Counted from the stretch's first letter, positions 9,868-15,922 are shown. The stretch: DNA of 64,000 nucleotides from Christensenellaceae bacterium (GCA_031260975.1 JAISKJ010000003.1:293758-357757), one strand, 5' to 3'. The notes: generated by a model not told the origin, from the sequence alone. Numbers and translations: made by a program.

Positions 9868-10359
9868 ATGATAGAGATAGGAAAGATTTTGAAGCCTTGG
9901 GGACTTAAGGGTGAGGTTAAGGTTAAGCCTTATAACGAAGAGGCTTTTCGGGACCTGAAAAAGATTTATATAGACCAAAAGACTTATCTTGTGAAAACGT
10001 CAGGTGTGCGAATGGGATATGCCTATCTTTTGCTTGAGGATTTTGACACGCCAGAAAAGTCGGAGATTTTTCGCGACAAAGAAATTTTTGCTGACAAAAG
10101 TGTTTTGGGCATTCTGGGTGCTGATGAATATCTTATTGGTGAAATGCTGGGGCTTTTGGTGGTGGATGACACAGGCGACGAGTGGGGCAGAATTGTAAGT
10201 GTTGAGCAATATGGCAGTGCTGATGTTTATACCGTTGTCGGACGTAAGGGCGAAAATAGATTTCCGTTTTTAAGTGACCTTGTCAAAAAGATAGATTTTG
10301 AAGAAAAGATTATGACAGTGTTTTTGGAAAAACTTGAAGAGGTTGTGGTATGCGGATAG
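9868..10359 (+). CDS. rimM: 16S rRNA processing protein RimM
   Basis: 163 residues. It helps mature the 30S head domain by binding uS19. The N-terminal beta-barrel has MIEIGKILKPWGLKGEVKVKPY, and a PRC-barrel at about 90-160 includes GDEWGRIVSVEQYGSADVYTV and the PFLSDLVKKIDFEE block. The gene overlaps the trmD start by 10 nt, which indicates translational coupling. Its own ATG lies right behind a -10 box and lacks an SD. Confidence 0.93.
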   Translation: MIEIGKILKPWGLKGEVKVKPYNEEAFRDLKKIYIDQKTYLVKTSGVRMGYAYLLLEDFDTPEKSEIFRDKEIFADKSVLGILGADEYLIGEMLGLLVVDDTGDEWGRIVSVEQYGSADVYTVVGRKGENRFPFLSDLVKKIDFEEKIMTVFLEKLEEVVVCG

Positions 10360-11018
10360 ATATTCTGACACTGTTTGTTGATATGTTTGAAAGTTTCAAG
10401 CATAGTATAATAAGCAGAGCCGTAAAAAAAGGCGCAATTGAAATAAACCTGATTGATATAAGAGCATTTAGCAATGACAAGCATAAAAAGTGCGATGATG
10501 CTCCTTTTGGCGGAGGCAGCGGTATGGTTATGACCCCGCAGCCGCTTTATGACGCTATAAAATCTGTCAAAAAAAGAAACTCGCATGTGATTTATCTCAG
10601 CCCCAAAGGTAGTGTGCTAAATCAGCAGAAGGTTCAGCAGCTCAGCAAGTTTAAGCATTTGGTTTTGGTTTGCGGGCATTATGAGGGCATCGACCAGCGT
10701 GTGATTGATTTACTGATTGACGAAGAAATTTCGGTAGGGGATTACGTTTTGACCGGCGGGGAGCTTGCCGCCGAAGTTTTGACGGACGCTGTAAGCCGTT
10801 ATGTGGACGGAGTGATTGAGAAAGGCTCGATTGAGGAAGAGAGTTTTGTGAGCGGACTTTTGGAGTATCCGCACTACACAAGACCTGCGGAGTTTAAGAA
10901 ACTGAAAGTACCTGAGGTTTTGCTAAGCGGTAATCATGCTGAGATAAAAAAATGGAGACAGGAGCAGAGCGAACAGATAACAAAGAAGAGACGGCCGGAT
11001 TTATTGGATAGTAATTGA
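10350..11018 (+). CDS. trmD: tRNA (guanine-N1-)-methyltransferase TrmD
   Basis: 222 residues. It methylates G37 of tRNAs with S-adenosylmethionine, preventing frameshifts. It shows the SPOUT trefoil-knot motifs: DIRAFSNDKHKKCDDAPFGGGSGMV, YLSPKG, CGHYEGIDQRV, and ISVGDYVLTGGELAA. Overlaps rimM. In related genomes the next genes are rplS and rbgA; here the downstream sequence is the severed rbgA leader and then a mobile element, while rplS lies at 19.5 kb. Confidence 0.96.
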   Translation: MRIDILTLFVDMFESFKHSIISRAVKKGAIEINLIDIRAFSNDKHKKCDDAPFGGGSGMVMTPQPLYDAIKSVKKRNSHVIYLSPKGSVLNQQKVQQLSKFKHLVLVCGHYEGIDQRVIDLLIDEEISVGDYVLTGGELAAEVLTDAVSRYVDGVIEKGSIEEESFVSGLLEYPHYTRPAEFKKLKVPEVLLSGNHAEIKKWRQEQSEQITKKRRPDLLDSN

Positions 11019-11034: not shown

Positions 11035-11084
11035 ACGCCGCCATAGGCGGCGTCGGACAAGCTGGGGACATCCCCGCAAGGAGG
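11035..11084 (+). promoter_or_regulatory. Two GC-rich hairpins abutting an SD (native rbgA leader)
   Basis: The perfect hairpin ACGCCGCC ATA GGCGGCGT (11035-11053) and GGGGA CA TCCCC (11064-11075) are followed two bases later by AAGGAGG (11078-11084). The same hairpin-then-SD layout, including CCCCGCAAGGAGGA, stands before iscU at 30.8 kb. That marks this as host sequence belonging to the original rbgA start, now cut off by the element. Confidence 0.6.
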
Positions 11085-11089
11085 AATAG

Positions 11090-11131
11090 ATGGTAATTCA
11101 ATGGTTTCCGGGGCATATTGATAAGTTTTAG
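11090..11131 (+). pseudogene. rbgA: Orphaned 5' end of rbgA, left of the insertion
   Basis: Thirteen codons with an excellent SD read MVIQWFPGHIDKF and then TAG. The segment IQWFPGH is the invariant N-terminus of RbgA/YlqF GTPases. The intact copy at 15083 begins MKINWFPGHMTK. The match runs through TGGTTTCC (11102-11109) and then fades into element sequence. I infer that this is the native rbgA start, severed when the element integrated within those codons. Confidence 0.75.
11102..11118 (+). repeat. Left attachment site core
   Basis: A 17-bp left copy of the junction repeat. The mismatches with the right copy fall in the third positions of the Pro and His codons. TTTAGCCACC (11127) and TTTTAGCCACC (about 11177), and then AAGTGGCAT twice (11217-11236), lie just inside and may be integrase arm sites. 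Confidence 0.6.
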
Positions 11132-11225
11132 CCACCAAATATGGGTGTTTTTAGGCTGTTTTGCCCCTATATTTAGTGTTTTTAGCCACCTGTTTTTAAG
11201 AAAAGTTGCAAATTTAAGTGGCATT

Positions 11226-12284
11226 TTAAGTGGCATTGCTAAATTTACTTGCCCATTTTTGTGATTCGCTCCTTTCAAAGTCTGTTACATGAGTGTAAAC
11301 TTTGCGTGCCATTGTGTCATCGCTCCAACCAAACCAACGAAAATAAACACTTATTGGTATTCCGTTGTCCTTGCAATTCGTTACACAAGTGTGGCGGAGG
11401 TCTTTTAATGTAAACTTAATTTGTGATTTTTCTTTAATCAACTTAAAGAAGTTTCTTATTGTGTTTATTGTGTGCTTTGCAAAAAGTTTTTCTTCGCCGT
11501 TTCGGTTTGCAACCAATCTTTCAAGTATGGGTTTAAGCGGTGGCAATATTGGCATTGTTCGCCGTGAGCCTTTGGTTTTTGTTCCGTCAATATAAAACTC
11601 GTTATTTGCAAAGTCTATATGCTTTACAAGAACTCTATCTATTTCGCCAACTCTCATTCCTGTGTAAATGTAAACCATAATTATATCTTTTTCTGTTTGA
11701 TTGTCGGCAACTTCAAGCAATTTTTCAATCTCTGCTTTTGTTAAGGCTCGCCCTCGTTTTCTTTCATGTTTCACTTTTTCCACCTGTTCCATTACGCTTC
11801 GTCCACCTGTTCGGCTCTTGGCTTTTTCAAGTGCCAATTTCAAAGCTGTGTAAACACCCTCGCAAGTTCTTGTTAATGGGTCATTGTTTAATTTCTCTTG
11901 GATATAGTCAGCGGTCAACTTGGACAAGGGCATATCGTCAAAGGTTTTCTTAATGCGTTTGATAAAAGATACATCAGTTATCAAAGTGTTTTTTGCCAAT
12001 TCGCCTTTTTCGCATCTATCACCTTTGGCAAGTTTTGGCTCTCTAAAAGTTTTATACCAATGGTCAAGCCATGCAAATAAAGTAAACTCTTTTTCTTTTG
12101 TTTCCGCTTTTGTGGGTTTTAGTTTCTTCCTGTTCTTGTGTGCTTCTAAAAGCCTTTTGTGAGCTTCGGTTTTGTTCGCAAGACAGCAAATATACTTTTG
12201 TGTTCCGCAAGACAAGGTTATTCTTGCTTCCCACCCGTTGCGGTCAGGGCGATAAAAAAGTGAGCAATTTTTTGGTCTATGCAT
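11226..12284 (-). CDS. int: Tyrosine recombinase (phage-type integrase)
   Basis: 352 residues. It catalyses site-specific integration and excision of the element. The N-terminal part is a basic arm-binding-like domain (FYRPDRNGWEARITL), then a core-binding domain from about residue 65 (FTLFAWLDHWYKTF). The catalytic domain has TGMRVGE (Arg I), KDLRHTCVT (Arg II box, with Lys in place of the usual first His) and GWSDDTMARKVYTHV (Trp at the His/Trp position, Tyr nucleophile). AAGGAGG lies 5 nt before the ATG at 12284. The open frame continues upstream to 12479, but those 65 codons look unlike an integrase N-terminus. The gene ends just inside the left attachment site, as is usual. Confidence 0.9.
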   Translation of the reverse strand: MHRPKNCSLFYRPDRNGWEARITLSCGTQKYICCLANKTEAHKRLLEAHKNRKKLKPTKAETKEKEFTLFAWLDHWYKTFREPKLAKGDRCEKGELAKNTLITDVSFIKRIKKTFDDMPLSKLTADYIQEKLNNDPLTRTCEGVYTALKLALEKAKSRTGGRSVMEQVEKVKHERKRGRALTKAEIEKLLEVADNQTEKDIIMVYIYTGMRVGEIDRVLVKHIDFANNEFYIDGTKTKGSRRTMPILPPLKPILERLVANRNGEEKLFAKHTINTIRNFFKLIKEKSQIKFTLKDLRHTCVTNCKDNGIPISVYFRWFGWSDDTMARKVYTHVTDFERSESQKWASKFSNAT

Positions 12285-12558
12285 TGTGTCCTCCTTTTGA
12301 GAGGTGCAACTCACAACCAAATTATTTTTTGATATTAAGTTGTCATGGTTCATTGTGCCGTGATATTCAAGCACATTTAATTTTACCATCCTTTCAATAG
12401 ATTCGACAAATGCATAAGGCAAAAAATTTAGCATTGTGCTAATCGTTTTTATAACTTCATTTTTGCTTTTTCGCCCCATTTTTACCCCGCTTGCGATAAC
12501 TCGCTAATTCTGTATCCTCGCTGGGTTTTAAGGCGTGGGTGGTTCGCCTGTGGCTGTG

Positions 12559-13071
12559 CTATCCGCCACCAATTTTGAAAAAAAGATTGCCCCTAAAATC
12601 GCCCGACATAAAAAGGGCAATCGCATAGTTGCCGTCAATTTTTAGTTCAAAGAATTTGTCAATGATAGGGTAGTAATCATCGGGTTCAAGTGTGTGTTCA
12701 ATTTCTCTCTCGCATCCGTCTGTTTGTGTGCAAGTGCCAAATGCCTGCAAGATATTTTTAATCGTTTGATTTTTCATGCGTGGGTGCTTGCCAATTCCAA
12801 ACTTGGTTTCATGTTGCTTAATAAAATAATCAAAGATGCTAATTACTTCTTCAAGTGTAAAAGCACAATCGGCAGAGTTATAGCATTTTCGTATTTGCCC
12901 CACAAGATAGTTAAAATCAAACGGAGCAGGGAGCATAGACTTTATACTTAAATTACTAAATATATATTTATATAATATATCTAAATGCTTTTGTATTTCT
13001 TGCGAATTTTCTATCTCGGCAAGAAGACTTTTAATTTTAGTAAACTGCGTTTGTATTTCATTATTGTTCAT
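12559..13071 (-). CDS. Hypothetical element protein, 170 aa
   Basis: Unrecognised. The N-terminal 40 residues are amphipathic and may form a coiled coil (TQFTKIKSLLAEIENSQEIQKHLDIL). The middle has LEEVISIFDYFIKQHETKFGIGKHPRMK, and the C-terminus IDGNYAIALFMSGDFRGNLFF. No membrane segment or known catalytic motif is seen. The ATG at 13071 follows the stop of the preceding gene by two bases with a G5 run upstream, so the two are coupled. A replication or regulatory role is possible but unsupported. Confidence 0.6.
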   Translation of the reverse strand: MNNNEIQTQFTKIKSLLAEIENSQEIQKHLDILYKYIFSNLSIKSMLPAPFDFNYLVGQIRKCYNSADCAFTLEEVISIFDYFIKQHETKFGIGKHPRMKNQTIKNILQAFGTCTQTDGCEREIEHTLEPDDYYPIIDKFFELKIDGNYAIALFMSGDFRGNLFFKIGGG

Positions 13072-13073
13072 AA

Positions 13074-13601
13074 TCAGCAACCCCCAATTTTTTGGATAGT
13101 CGCCGCTTTGCCATAGTCAAAATTTTGACCACTCATGTTAATTTCGGGGCTTATTTGCTCGCAAGCATTTTGGTTCGTGTTTTGTCCTGCATTCTGCTCT
13201 TGCTTGCGTTGTGGGGCATTCTGTGGGGCGACGCAAGGTATTAAAAACAATTTGTGATAATTTTCACCAAACCTAAACCCTGTGTTTGTTCCGTTGCCAT
13301 AGTGTTCTATCTCACGAATCAAAACACCTGCATCGGCAAGGCGTGCGAAGATAATTTTTGATAGCGTAGTCGGTTTGATATTCAAAATTGGCAAGTCGTG
13401 TAAAATCTCGGCATACAAGCCGCCACCATAAATAAAACAGCGGTATCCGTTTACAAGTCGTATATCAAACCTATTAGAGACAATATTGTCAGTTATCCAA
13501 CGCAAAATAACAAGGTGGCTTGTCGTCAGTTTTAATTCAATGGCGGCGGCTTGCGAAAACCCTAAAAATAGTGTTTGTTCACTCACGGGCTTCACCCCCA
13601 T
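13074..13601 (-). CDS. Winged-helix-like element protein, possible replication or control protein
   Basis: About 175 residues. Residues 10-110 look like a winged-helix DNA-binding domain: LTTSHLVILRWITDNI, then LNIKPTTLSKIIFARLADAGVLIREIEHYG, a recognition helix and wing pattern seen in phage replication-initiation and plasmid Rep-like proteins. The C-terminal third is Gln/Asn-rich. The start is uncertain. ATG 13601 is used; GTG 13586 with GGGGGTG upstream is also plausible, and both overlap the end of the 63-codon gene. Function is inferred from fold only. Confidence 0.6.
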   Translation of the reverse strand: MGVKPVSEQTLFLGFSQAAAIELKLTTSHLVILRWITDNIVSNRFDIRLVNGYRCFIYGGGLYAEILHDLPILNIKPTTLSKIIFARLADAGVLIREIEHYGNGTNTGFRFGENYHKLFLIPCVAPQNAPQRKQEQNAGQNTNQNACEQISPEINMSGQNFDYGKAATIQKIGGC

Positions 13602-13770
13602 GAGTTTCGCCACTTCCCCTTGGTGATACCTTTTCAAGCTCGGTGGCGGCTTTGCGTTCCCACCATGCCGCTTGATAATCTCGCACACGCTTGCAGTTCT
13701 TGGCGTAGTATTGGCGTTTATATGCTCGCCGCAACTCTTTCGCCTTTTCTTTGATTGTCTTGTTATCCAT
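13579..13770 (-). CDS. Small basic element protein, 63 aa
   Basis: MDNKTIKEKAKELRRAYKRQ followed by a Lys/Arg/Tyr/Trp-rich helix (YQAAWWERKAATELEK). Short proteins of this composition are common in Firmicutes phages and integrative elements, with unknown function. AAGGAGG lies upstream of the ATG. First gene of the leftward operon that ends with the integrase; its 3' end overlaps the next start. Confidence 0.6.
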   Translation of the reverse strand: MDNKTIKEKAKELRRAYKRQYYAKNCKRVRDYQAAWWERKAATELEKVSPRGSGETHGGEARE

Positions 13771-13846
13771 GATTCAGAACCCTCCTTGGTTCTTAATTCT
13801 CATGGTTCATTCCGCATCGTAGACAACAAGATTTGTCCTATGTCCT

Positions 13847-13876
13847 ATTATAGTCTTTTTCCTAAAAATATGTCAG
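13847..13876 (-). promoter_or_regulatory. Promoter of the leftward integrase operon
   Basis: The minus strand reads CTGACA (13876-13871), 18 nt, TATAAT (13852-13847). Just downstream AGGACAT is followed by AGGACA, a short direct repeat that could be an operator. Confidence 0.55.
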
Positions 13877-13912
13877 TGTGTTGTTTTTCGCTAAAAAGTT
13901 AAGTTTACAAAA

Positions 13913-14072
13913 ATAGTATAATTATTTTAATGTGTGGGCTTTCAAAACTTCTGTTTTTGATTATTTGCAAACAAAAGATAGTATAACTATATTAAAGTTT
14001 GGCTGTTGTTAATTTTGTAATTTCGTATAATGTATTAAACAAAAAGCAGAAGTGAAAAGATAGTATAAACAT
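13913..14072. repeat. Three operator- or iteron-like ATAGT palindromes
   Basis: ATAGTATAATTAT (13913-13925), ATAGTATAACTAT (13978-13990) and ATAGTATAAACAT (14060-14072). The middle copy is a perfect ATAGT-ATA-ACTAT palindrome and the others degenerate from it. They sit in the 537-base gene-free stretch (13771-14307) between the element's divergent genes, so they may bind the element's repressor or replication protein. Confidence 0.5.
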
Positions 14073-14120
14073 ATATAAGTATTGTTTGCGTTTTCGCCAT
14101 TTTTATGGCATAATATAAAT

Positions 14121-14212
14121 GCGACACAAATCTCATTTTAATTTCTCTCACGAGGAATAACTTTTGGCTTTCTGCCATAGTTCCAAACTCGTGAGAGTGA
14201 GGTTTGTGTCGC
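14121..14212. other. Long bulged hairpin in the element (oriT-, origin- or RNA-like)
   Basis: Outer 15-bp arms, GCGACACAAATCTCA (14121-14135) and TGAGGTTTGTGTCGC (14198-14212), have one wobble. A 9-nt bulge lies on the left, then a perfect 10-bp stem CTCTCACGAG / CTCGTGAGAG (14145-14154, 14188-14197). Inner pairing is possible between GGAA..GGC and GCC..TTCC. No reading frame explains this conservation of complementarity. Candidates are an oriT, a single-strand replication origin, or a structured leader for the gene at 14308. Confidence 0.6.
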
Positions 14213-14222
14213 AACTTACCTT

Positions 14223-14278
14223 GGGAACATGGTGTTAGCACTTGTGCCGTTCCCTCGGGGGCGGCACATTTTATTTAT
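14223..14278 (+). promoter_or_regulatory. Mutually exclusive stems, attenuator-like
   Basis: GGGAAC (14223-14228) can pair with GTTCCC (14249-14254). Alternatively GTGCCG (14244-14249) can pair with CGGCAC (14262-14267), which is followed by ATTTTATTTAT. The two stems overlap and cannot coexist. The second looks like a weak terminator just upstream of the membrane-protein gene. Confidence 0.45.
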
Positions 14279-14307
14279 AAAATGTCGCCAATATACAAGG
14301 AGGCGGC

Positions 14308-14826
14308 ATGATAAAAGACAAAAAGCATATTGCGTGGTTTGTGTTGAGTATTGCGGGGTTCGTGTTGTTTGTGGCGGTCTTTGTTTTGTTTTCACTGAAT
14401 TATTATGGAGTTATATGGCAATCTCATTGGGATGAAATTCTTAATCAAATTGTTATAACGGAATATTCGGCTCGCTCATACTATCAAGCAGAGCCATACA
14501 CAATTTATATATTTGCTTTCTATCTTGTTTGGGCGATTGCTTCTTTTGTGTTGCATATTGTTGGGGCGATAAAGGGCGACAAGTATAAATATCTTAACCA
14601 TCACATTTCACGCATGACGACGCTTGCATTTTCATTTTTTGCGTTTTACTTAATCCTTACAGAAAGCATCAAAATATTAGAATCTATTGCTTATTCGCCA
14701 ATAAAATCTTATGAGTTATATAGCGGCTTTTGGGCTGTCTTGGCTACGATAATCGTTTTGGTTGCTGTGCAGGTTGCGGCGGCTTTCATGTTGAAATTAA
14801 AAGATAAAAAGATTGTAAAACAATAA
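14308..14826 (+). CDS. Element-encoded four-helix membrane protein
   Basis: 172 residues, unrecognised. There are four hydrophobic segments, at about residues 9-30, 67-88, 103-123 and 138-163, with a basic C-terminus (KLKDKKIVKQ). AAGGAGG precedes the ATG. It is the only rightward gene of the element and is preceded by the structured region. Exclusion, immunity, mobilisation or host-interaction roles are all possible; nothing in the sequence decides. Confidence 0.7.
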   Translation: MIKDKKHIAWFVLSIAGFVLFVAVFVLFSLNYYGVIWQSHWDEILNQIVITEYSARSYYQAEPYTIYIFAFYLVWAIASFVLHIVGAIKGDKYKYLNHHISRMTTLAFSFFAFYLILTESIKILESIAYSPIKSYELYSGFWAVLATIIVLVAVQVAAAFMLKLKDKKIVKQ

Positions 14827-15056
14827 CAACGCAAAAAGCCCCAATGTTTGAGGCTGTTTGCAAAAAATAATTTGGACATGATATTACACCTATTTTTTAA
14901 TTTTTATTGTGTTTGAAAATTTAAGATATTTTCAAGTGGCATAATTAGTGGCATGGTTTTTGCGGTTTCGGCTTTTTCTTTGATTCATAAGATTTATTCC
15001 GCACAAACCAAATTTTTAGTGGCGTTTTTGCCTAAAATAGTGTATAATTTCGGCGT

Positions 15057-15086
15057 ATGAATGATTGTAAAGGTGGCGAAAAATGA
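15057..15086 (+). CDS. Nine-codon leader peptide overlapping the rbgA start
   Basis: ATG at 15057 lies 8 nt after TATAAT (15043-15048) and reads MNDCKGGEK. Its TGA (15084-15086) overlaps the rbgA ATG at 15083. The GGTGG within it acts as the rbgA SD. The whole unit lies inside the element, which therefore supplies a new promoter and a translationally coupled start for the host gene. Whether the peptide is made is inference. Confidence 0.35.
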   Translation: MNDCKGGEK

Positions 15087-15922
15087 AGATAAATTGGTTT
15101 CCCGGGCACATGACAAAGGCCCTGCGTATGATGGAAAAAGAAATAAAGGTTGTGGATACAGTTATCTATGTTTTAGACAGCCGTGCTCCCAAAAGCTGCG
15201 TTAATCCCGAGCTTACTAAGCTTGCCGGAAACAAGCCCATAATTTATGTTTTAAATAAAGCTGATATGGCACCAAAGGCCGAGCTAAGCAAATGGGTCAA
15301 ATATTTTAAGTCACCAAATAGTGAGGCAGTAATGCTTAACAGTACATCCTCAAGCAGTGCTAAGATTATTATATCAATAATAAAAAAACTGCTTGCTCCA
15401 AAAATTGAGGCTAAAGCTCAAAAAGGGATAACAAAAATTATCCGAGCCATGGTGGTGGGTGTGCCCAACAGCGGAAAAAGTACGCTTATAAATAACCTTT
15501 GCGGCAAGGGTAAAACTATGACAGGAAATAAGCCCGGAGTCACCCGCGGCAAACAGTGGGTGATGGTTGACGGAATCGAAATTCTGGACACTCCCGGCAC
15601 ATTATGGCCTAGTTTTGAGGACCATAATACTGCACTTAATCTCGCCTATATCGGTAGTATAAAAGACGACGTTTTAGATGTTGCGGAGCTTGCCTTTTCG
15701 TTTTTGGGGCAAATAAAGGGTAAATTCAATACGGAGATTGGTGAAAGATATAAAATTAATATAGAAAATACCGATGAAACACTTGAAATTTTTGATAGTA
15801 TTTGCAGGGCACGAAAAGCAATTCTTCGTGACGGAGATTTTGATTATGAGCGTGCCGCCAGAGTTATTATAGATGACTTCAGGCATGGCAAATTCGGCAA
15901 AATTATTTTGGATAATTTATGA
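15083..15922 (+). CDS. rbgA: Ribosome biogenesis GTPase RbgA (YlqF)
   Basis: 279 residues. It is a circularly permuted GTPase for late 50S assembly that promotes incorporation of uL16. The permuted order is visible: G4 NKAD (58-61), G1 GVPNSGKS (126-133), then G3 DTPG (169-172), followed by the C-terminal ANTAR-like RNA-binding region. The N-terminal WFPGHM is intact. The first codons and the upstream region come from the inserted element; downstream rnhB and yraN are its normal partners. GGTGG lies 8 nt before the ATG. Confidence 0.95.
   Translation: MKINWFPGHMTKALRMMEKEIKVVDTVIYVLDSRAPKSCVNPELTKLAGNKPIIYVLNKADMAPKAELSKWVKYFKSPNSEAVMLNSTSSSSAKIIISIIKKLLAPKIEAKAQKGITKIIRAMVVGVPNSGKSTLINNLCGKGKTMTGNKPGVTRGKQWVMVDGIEILDTPGTLWPSFEDHNTALNLAYIGSIKDDVLDVAELAFSFLGQIKGKFNTEIGERYKINIENTDETLEIFDSICRARKAILRDGDFDYERAARVIIDDFRHGKFGKIILDNL
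15095..15111 (+). repeat. Right attachment site core, inside rbgA
   Basis: The right copy of the junction repeat encodes WFPGHM of RbgA. TGGC-containing repeats (AAGTGGCAT about 14934, TTAGTGGCAT about 14946, TTAGTGGCG about 15016) lie on the element side and match the AAGTGGCAT repeats at the other end, as arm-type integrase sites would. Confidence 0.6.

Follow-up and report, generated by a model that had tools for sequence, protein, structure and literature searches.

A small integrative element very probably inserted at the WFPGH codons of rbgA in a Christensenellaceae genome

The window, a 64,000-nucleotide stretch from a Christensenellaceae bacterium (GCA_031260975.1, JAISKJ010000003.1:293758-357757), carries trmD, a short orphan copy of the start of rbgA, a tyrosine integrase gene and, some 4 kb further on, the intact rbgA, which encodes a ribosome biogenesis GTPase. 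From the sequence we regard it as very probable that the DNA between the two rbgA starts is an integrative element, inserted site-specifically into the WFPGH codons of rbgA and supplying the gene with a new start. The features that bear on this reading are, in window coordinates and with their basis in brackets:

10350..11018, plus strand: trmD, the native upstream neighbour of rbgA (PF01746, 4.6e-63; found upstream of rbgA in most relatives' loci)
11078..11084, plus strand: AAGGAGG, the native Shine-Dalgarno (SD) sequence of rbgA, now ahead of the orphan start (sequence)
11090..11131, plus strand: orphan rbgA start MVIQWFPGHIDKF-stop, the left attachment site (attL), chromosomal up to the core and element-derived beyond it (sequence)
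11102..11109, plus strand: left core copy TGGTTTCC, in attL (sequence, repeat comparison)
11102..15094, no strand: predicted integrative element, 3,993 bp core to core (core copies, family motif count, integrase search)
11213..11236, plus strand: left arm-type repeat pair TTTAAGTGGCATTTTAAGTGGCAT (repeat comparison)
11226..12479, minus strand: tyrosine integrase, 417 aa (PF00589, 9.4e-21; phrog_1, 2e-48; alignment)
14931..14954, plus strand: right arm-type repeat pair TTCAAGTGGCATAATTAGTGGCAT (repeat comparison)
15043..15048, plus strand: TATAAT, candidate -10 box of an element-borne rbgA promoter, lacking a good -35 box (sequence)
15070..15076, plus strand: AAGGTGG, the element-supplied SD (sequence)
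15083..15922, plus strand: rbgA (ylqF), intact, with bases 15083-15094 supplied by the element (TIGR03596, 305.8 bits against a cut-off of 208.2)
15095..15102, plus strand: right core copy TGGTTTCC within rbgA, the right attachment site (attR; sequence, repeat comparison)

The orphan start consists of 13 codons 3' of trmD, with its ATG at 11090, and the translation of the intact gene, 3,993 bp away, begins MKINWFPGHMTKA (start sequence MKINWFPGHMTKALRMM). The two starts are identical over 8 bp (TGGTTTCC) and agree at 15 of 17 bases across 11102-11118 and 15095-15111, so that coordinates and repeat comparison bear out the preliminary description of this DNA, which had placed an orphan start after trmD, an intact rbgA 4 kb on, a 15/17 shared block and a tyrosine recombinase at the left copy. 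When the left flank was joined computationally to the right flank at the core, the resulting attachment site (attB, predicted as GGTAATTCAATGGTTTCCCGGGCACATGACAAAG) restored MVIQWFPGHMTKALRMMEKE in frame behind the native SD, about 70 bp past trmD, and the converse join, the circular junction (attP, predicted as GAAGATAAATTGGTTTCCGGGGCATATTGATAAG), encoded MKINWFPGHIDKF-stop only. At the right end the element keeps the reading frame of rbgA with an SD, an ATG and three further codons, MKIN replacing MVIQ; the replacement of the ribosome-binding site, start codon and first four codons can be read directly in the DNA, as had been proposed. A tRNA was looked for at both ends of the element and none was found.

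We also considered a chance origin of the two copies and ruled it out, as TGGTTTCCNGGNYA occurs at these two sites only in the whole 1.19-Mb genome, the reversed control gave no match, and two copies of a longer motif were otherwise found in only one of the family genomes described below. Between trmD and the orphan start, at 11035-11053, lies a strong G+C-rich hairpin, ACGCCGCCATAGGCGGCGT, which occurs once in the window and, having no T-run, would be atypical as a terminator.

The integrase gene is intact and ends about 95 bp from the stop codon of the orphan start. Alignment shows that R276, K301, K359, R362, W385 and Y395 are conserved in three relatives, and a lysine occupies the position where the first histidine of the HxxR box is usual; the integrase profile found no sequence match in the PDB at 1e-5. 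Just inside both ends of the element are paired repeats with 12-bp spacing (AAGTGGCAT...AAGTGGCAT on one side, AAGTGGCAT...TAGTGGCAT on the other), which presumably serve as arm-type integrase sites.

We counted the motif and searched for the integrase in 309 genomes of the same family, in which the present genome is labelled G000. The rbgA-start motif ATHMANTGGTTYCCNGG was present in 253 of them, as a single copy in 251 and as two copies in exactly two, G000 and G324. A close relative of the integrase was likewise found only in G324 (E 9.7e-56, 47-63% identity over two pieces), the next best match having an E-value of 6e-34. Double motif and close integrase thus coincide in the same two genomes, with a chance probability of about 3e-5. 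Further close members of the integrase group were absent from order-level (396 genomes) and class-level (391 genomes) searches and from IMG/VR, and phage and plasmid records returned distant integrases only (<60% identity). We looked for rbgA itself in 40 genomes of this family and order and found it in nearly all of them, with trmD 0 to ~850 bp upstream in most of the relatives' loci read and the rbgA start single there. The preliminary description had pointed to the trmD-rbgA junction of relatives without the element as a check, and there the genes are adjacent, the start is single and the orphan copy is absent throughout the 251 single-copy genomes.

In G324 (contig WRCD01000008.1, a Bacillota metagenome-assembled genome of a different genus) an element likewise lies between trmD and rbgA, and this related integrase at the same place in another genus agrees with the earlier proposal that the WFPGH codons of rbgA serve as the attachment site. 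The gene order there runs trmD, an orphan MNINWFPG-stop, a trypsin-like gene, the integrase, PDC-M33A/B/C, a type II cytosine methyltransferase, Vsr and PDC-S41, followed by a second orphan start (MKINWFPGY), an alanyl-tRNA synthetase gene and then rbgA (MKISYFPGHM). None of this cargo is related to that of the 4-kb element, and it includes candidate anti-phage defence genes (L050:1036-6007 and L062:5021-7012). From its sequence the G324 locus is most readily interpreted as a tandem of two elements, of which the second lacks an integrase. The left end of this putative second element resembles that of a locus in another genome, G672 (score 47 against a best shuffle of 27), and the two right ends within G324 resemble each other marginally (33 against 30). 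The alanyl-tRNA synthetase gene (593 aa, L062:2208-3989, minus strand) is the sole sizeable gene of the second, integrase-less element. In G672 (WRLT01000006.1) a related integrase sits beside an rbgA-like orphan start with a strong SD, LHIHWFPGHIM (L064:9275-9320, minus strand), but the assembly has no rbgA and no trmD stands upstream, for which a secondary site, a missing contig and mis-binning are candidate explanations; we take G672 as supporting evidence only.

We propose that attP of the element would recombine with an attB formed by rbgA codons 5-7 (W-F-P), the element's tyrosine integrase exchanging strands within TGGTTTCC, the block common to both sites. Integration would split the native trmD-rbgA unit: the SD and first codons of the chromosomal gene would remain next to trmD, forming an orphan that reads into an element-encoded stop, while the right end would bring an SD, an ATG and the MKIN codons, fused in frame to WFPGHM. 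By this route rbgA would stay intact, with different DNA upstream and a slightly altered N-terminus. On excision, MVIQWFPGHMTKALRMM would be restored behind trmD and the element released as a circle with the MKINWFPGHIDKF-stop junction.

Integration into the start of rbgA is known from streptococci and enterococci. Tn5253 enters rbgA after nucleotide 20 (Streptococcus pneumoniae) or 17 (Enterococcus faecalis) of the coding sequence and restores the gene, its junction lying downstream of an 11-bp conserved core (PMC8571831, PMC6079316). A survey of streptococcal integrative and conjugative elements (ICEs) names rbgA, ftsK and ebfC as genes entered at the 5' end and includes two rbgA ICEs that fully replace the upstream sequence together with the promoter (PMC4701971), and more rbgA ICEs are reported in S. 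suis (PMC7168690). The preliminary description had regarded rbgA as an unfamiliar target, a claim that fails because its 5' end is an established integration site (PMC8571831, PMC6079316, PMC4701971). Counted on the orphan start, nucleotide 17 is window base 11106, inside TGGTTTCC, and the insertion site is therefore the same within a few bases. Like the 4-kb element, Tn5253 and the Tn5252/Tn1549-family streptococcal ICEs have a tyrosine integrase, an attachment site in the first rbgA codons and an element end that restores the gene; as further points of likeness, two of the ICEs replace the upstream region with its promoter, and an alanine codon is added in E. faecalis (PMC8571831, PMC6079316, PMC4701971, PMC7168690). 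They differ in that the 4-kb element replaces the first codons, and in that they carry transfer genes, xis-int and direct repeats of 17-84 bp, against an 8-bp perfect repeat and no recognised transfer genes or xis here. The hosts differ too, streptococci and enterococci for the Tn5253 type and an uncultured Bacillota family for the 4-kb element; the likeness is one of site and arrangement.

Sequence and genome comparison establish that the gene start is duplicated, that its frame is restored precisely, that the double start goes with this integrase family and that relatives have the empty arrangement; present-day excision is inferred. Site-specific insertion at the rbgA WFPGH codons is well supported because the duplicated motif and the close integrase coincide, because G324 offers a parallel, and because arm-type repeats occur at both ends. 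Several observations weigh against it. The perfect core is only 8 bp, with two mismatches in 17 bases, which is short beside the 17-84-bp direct repeats of Tn5253; the empty-site arrangement is known from other genomes of the family, none of them a same-species strain; the G672 assembly contains no rbgA, and no trmD beside its orphan start, leaving the integrase target there unconfirmed; and no excisionase gene was recognised among the open reading frames (ORFs) of the element with Pfam, PHROGs and NCBIfam.

The remaining genes of the element are few:

12559..13080, minus strand: 173-aa protein (no family match; low-confidence helical model, too poor for use)
13074..13688, minus strand: 204-aa winged-helix protein, weakly like plasmid RepA and DnaD N-terminal domains, a possible replication initiator (predicted structure)
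13579..13770, minus strand: 63-aa ORF overlapping the 204-aa gene, putatively coding (phrog_14214, at E 0.005 only)
14308..14826, plus strand: 172-aa predicted membrane protein, cargo (no family above cut-off)

The model of the 204-aa protein has moderate confidence (predicted local distance difference test mostly 73-92 over residues 41-150), and the PDB entries that it matches best are initiators of the RepA type and the N-terminal domain of DnaD, with sub-threshold E-values of 0.02-0.2. Weak relatives of this protein occur in other elements, and IMG/VR contained no relatives of it or of the 173-aa protein; that it might replicate the excised circle is a guess. The same three family collections revealed no transfer genes (relaxase, type IV secretion) among the ORFs of the element, and PHROGs gave no match to phage structural or packaging genes.

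Such sparse contents bear on what the element now is and where it came from. It may have become an immobile relic, an old integration in which excision has been lost and rbgA now depends on the sequence of the right end; the missing excisionase, the att copies differing at two of 17 bases, the small size and the lack of recognised transfer genes would all fit, and there is a precedent in the SpyCI of strain Manfredo, where mutL stays expressed thanks to a promoter within the decayed int (PMC3430984). Yet the integrase frame is intact and its catalytic residues are conserved, and mismatches outside the crossover are to be expected when attP and attB are not identical, attL and attR of Tn5253 themselves differing by four changes and one insertion (PMC6079316). 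We consider a relic possible, though not probable.

The element could also descend from a larger ICE or prophage whose transfer or structural genes have been lost, a proposal that varies its origin and leaves the mechanism of insertion as it is. Relatives of the integrase do sit in larger elements (~10 kb in G324, >19 kb in G672). Against this, the element carries a winged-helix gene of its own, with a weak resemblance to replication initiators, and similar small arrangements of winged-helix gene and integrase occur at L083 and L086 of other family genomes. Because of these small arrangements, in the element and elsewhere in the family, a free-standing small element is as likely as a remnant, and we regard the remnant origin as possible, though not probable.

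It is very unlikely that homologous recombination or a partial duplication of rbgA produced the two copies, with the integrase as an unrelated neighbour: a partial copy of the gene start would likewise yield two copies, but the similarity is limited to ~17 bp at the WFPGH codons with no repetition of the flanking DNA, the same integrase clade occurs at the same codons in another genus, and each end of the element has arm-type repeats on its inner side. That the orphan is a native leader peptide, or a regulatory ORF ahead of rbgA, with no tie to mobile DNA, as its good SD and the short ORF closed by a stop might suggest, can be dismissed as less likely still, given the single copy in 251 family genomes, the different ending of the G324 orphan, at its element's border, and the position of trmD just upstream of rbgA in most relatives.

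Insertion by a 4-kb element, as we propose, would place rbgA under new upstream sequence. The right end may contain a working promoter; a consensus promoter scan reported no full plus-strand promoter immediately upstream of rbgA. Other 5'-end elements, of a kind that provides its target gene with a promoter and an N-terminus, such as SXT in prfC and the dusA-specific islands (PMC8409611), differ from the 4-kb element in gene, host and integrase; after integration of one such island, IMEVchUSA3, dusA expression fell (PMC8409611), and by this analogy it is plausible that loss of the element would alter rbgA expression. The SpyCI phage-like islands at the 5' end of mutL silence that gene unless an internal promoter rescues it, and excise by growth phase (PMC3430984). 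Like the 4-kb element, they occupy the 5' end of an operonic gene and cut it off from its native upstream sequence; unlike SpyCI, which silences mutL when integrated, the 4-kb element leaves rbgA intact, and expression of the gene has to come from the element's side. Since the gene start is replaced, the effect on rbgA expression can be tested.

Attachment at the 5' end of rbgA was already known from streptococcal elements such as Tn5253, and what is new here is that it occurs in this host lineage, with a tiny non-conjugative element and with N-terminal codons replaced. These findings add an uncultured Bacillota family and a 4-kb element to a site known from ICEs of streptococci and enterococci, and show a related integrase with candidate anti-phage defence cargo, in apparent tandem at the same codons. 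In many hosts, an invariant codon string offers mobile DNA a predictable place to land. A broader generalisation is conceivable, though rather unlikely: that mobile DNA across Bacillota has a general point of entry in the WFPGH codons of rbgA, one invented repeatedly and used by the Tn5253 type, by the present integrase clade (where elements accrete in tandem and carry defence genes) and perhaps by paired serine recombinases. If true, expression of an essential GTPase of ribosome assembly would in several lineages depend on signals borne by an element, and ribosome assembly would be tied to the presence of that element.

Other recombinases were seen near rbgA in viral data. Four IMG/VR contigs carry paired large serine recombinase genes (~530-550 aa each) directly upstream of rbgA (L073:601-3848, L075:112-3123, L076:1930-5195 and L089:655-3908), one gene of the L075 pair being cut by the contig end, which suggests, for viral contigs, another class of recombinase at this site or close to it. 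Viral contigs carrying rbgA had at most one copy of the rbgA-start motif where tested, and two further pattern scans of IMG/VR added one contig. Three IMG/VR proviruses of 35-42 kb (L070, L071, L072) have phage late or lysis-like genes right in front of the rbgA start, an arrangement that looks as though the proviruses end there. Elsewhere in the family, two different species contain very similar cassettes of a winged-helix gene, a small excisionase (Xis)-like gene and an integrase of 463-464 aa (L083:5368-7913 and L086:3446-5910), which suggests another family of small integrative elements.
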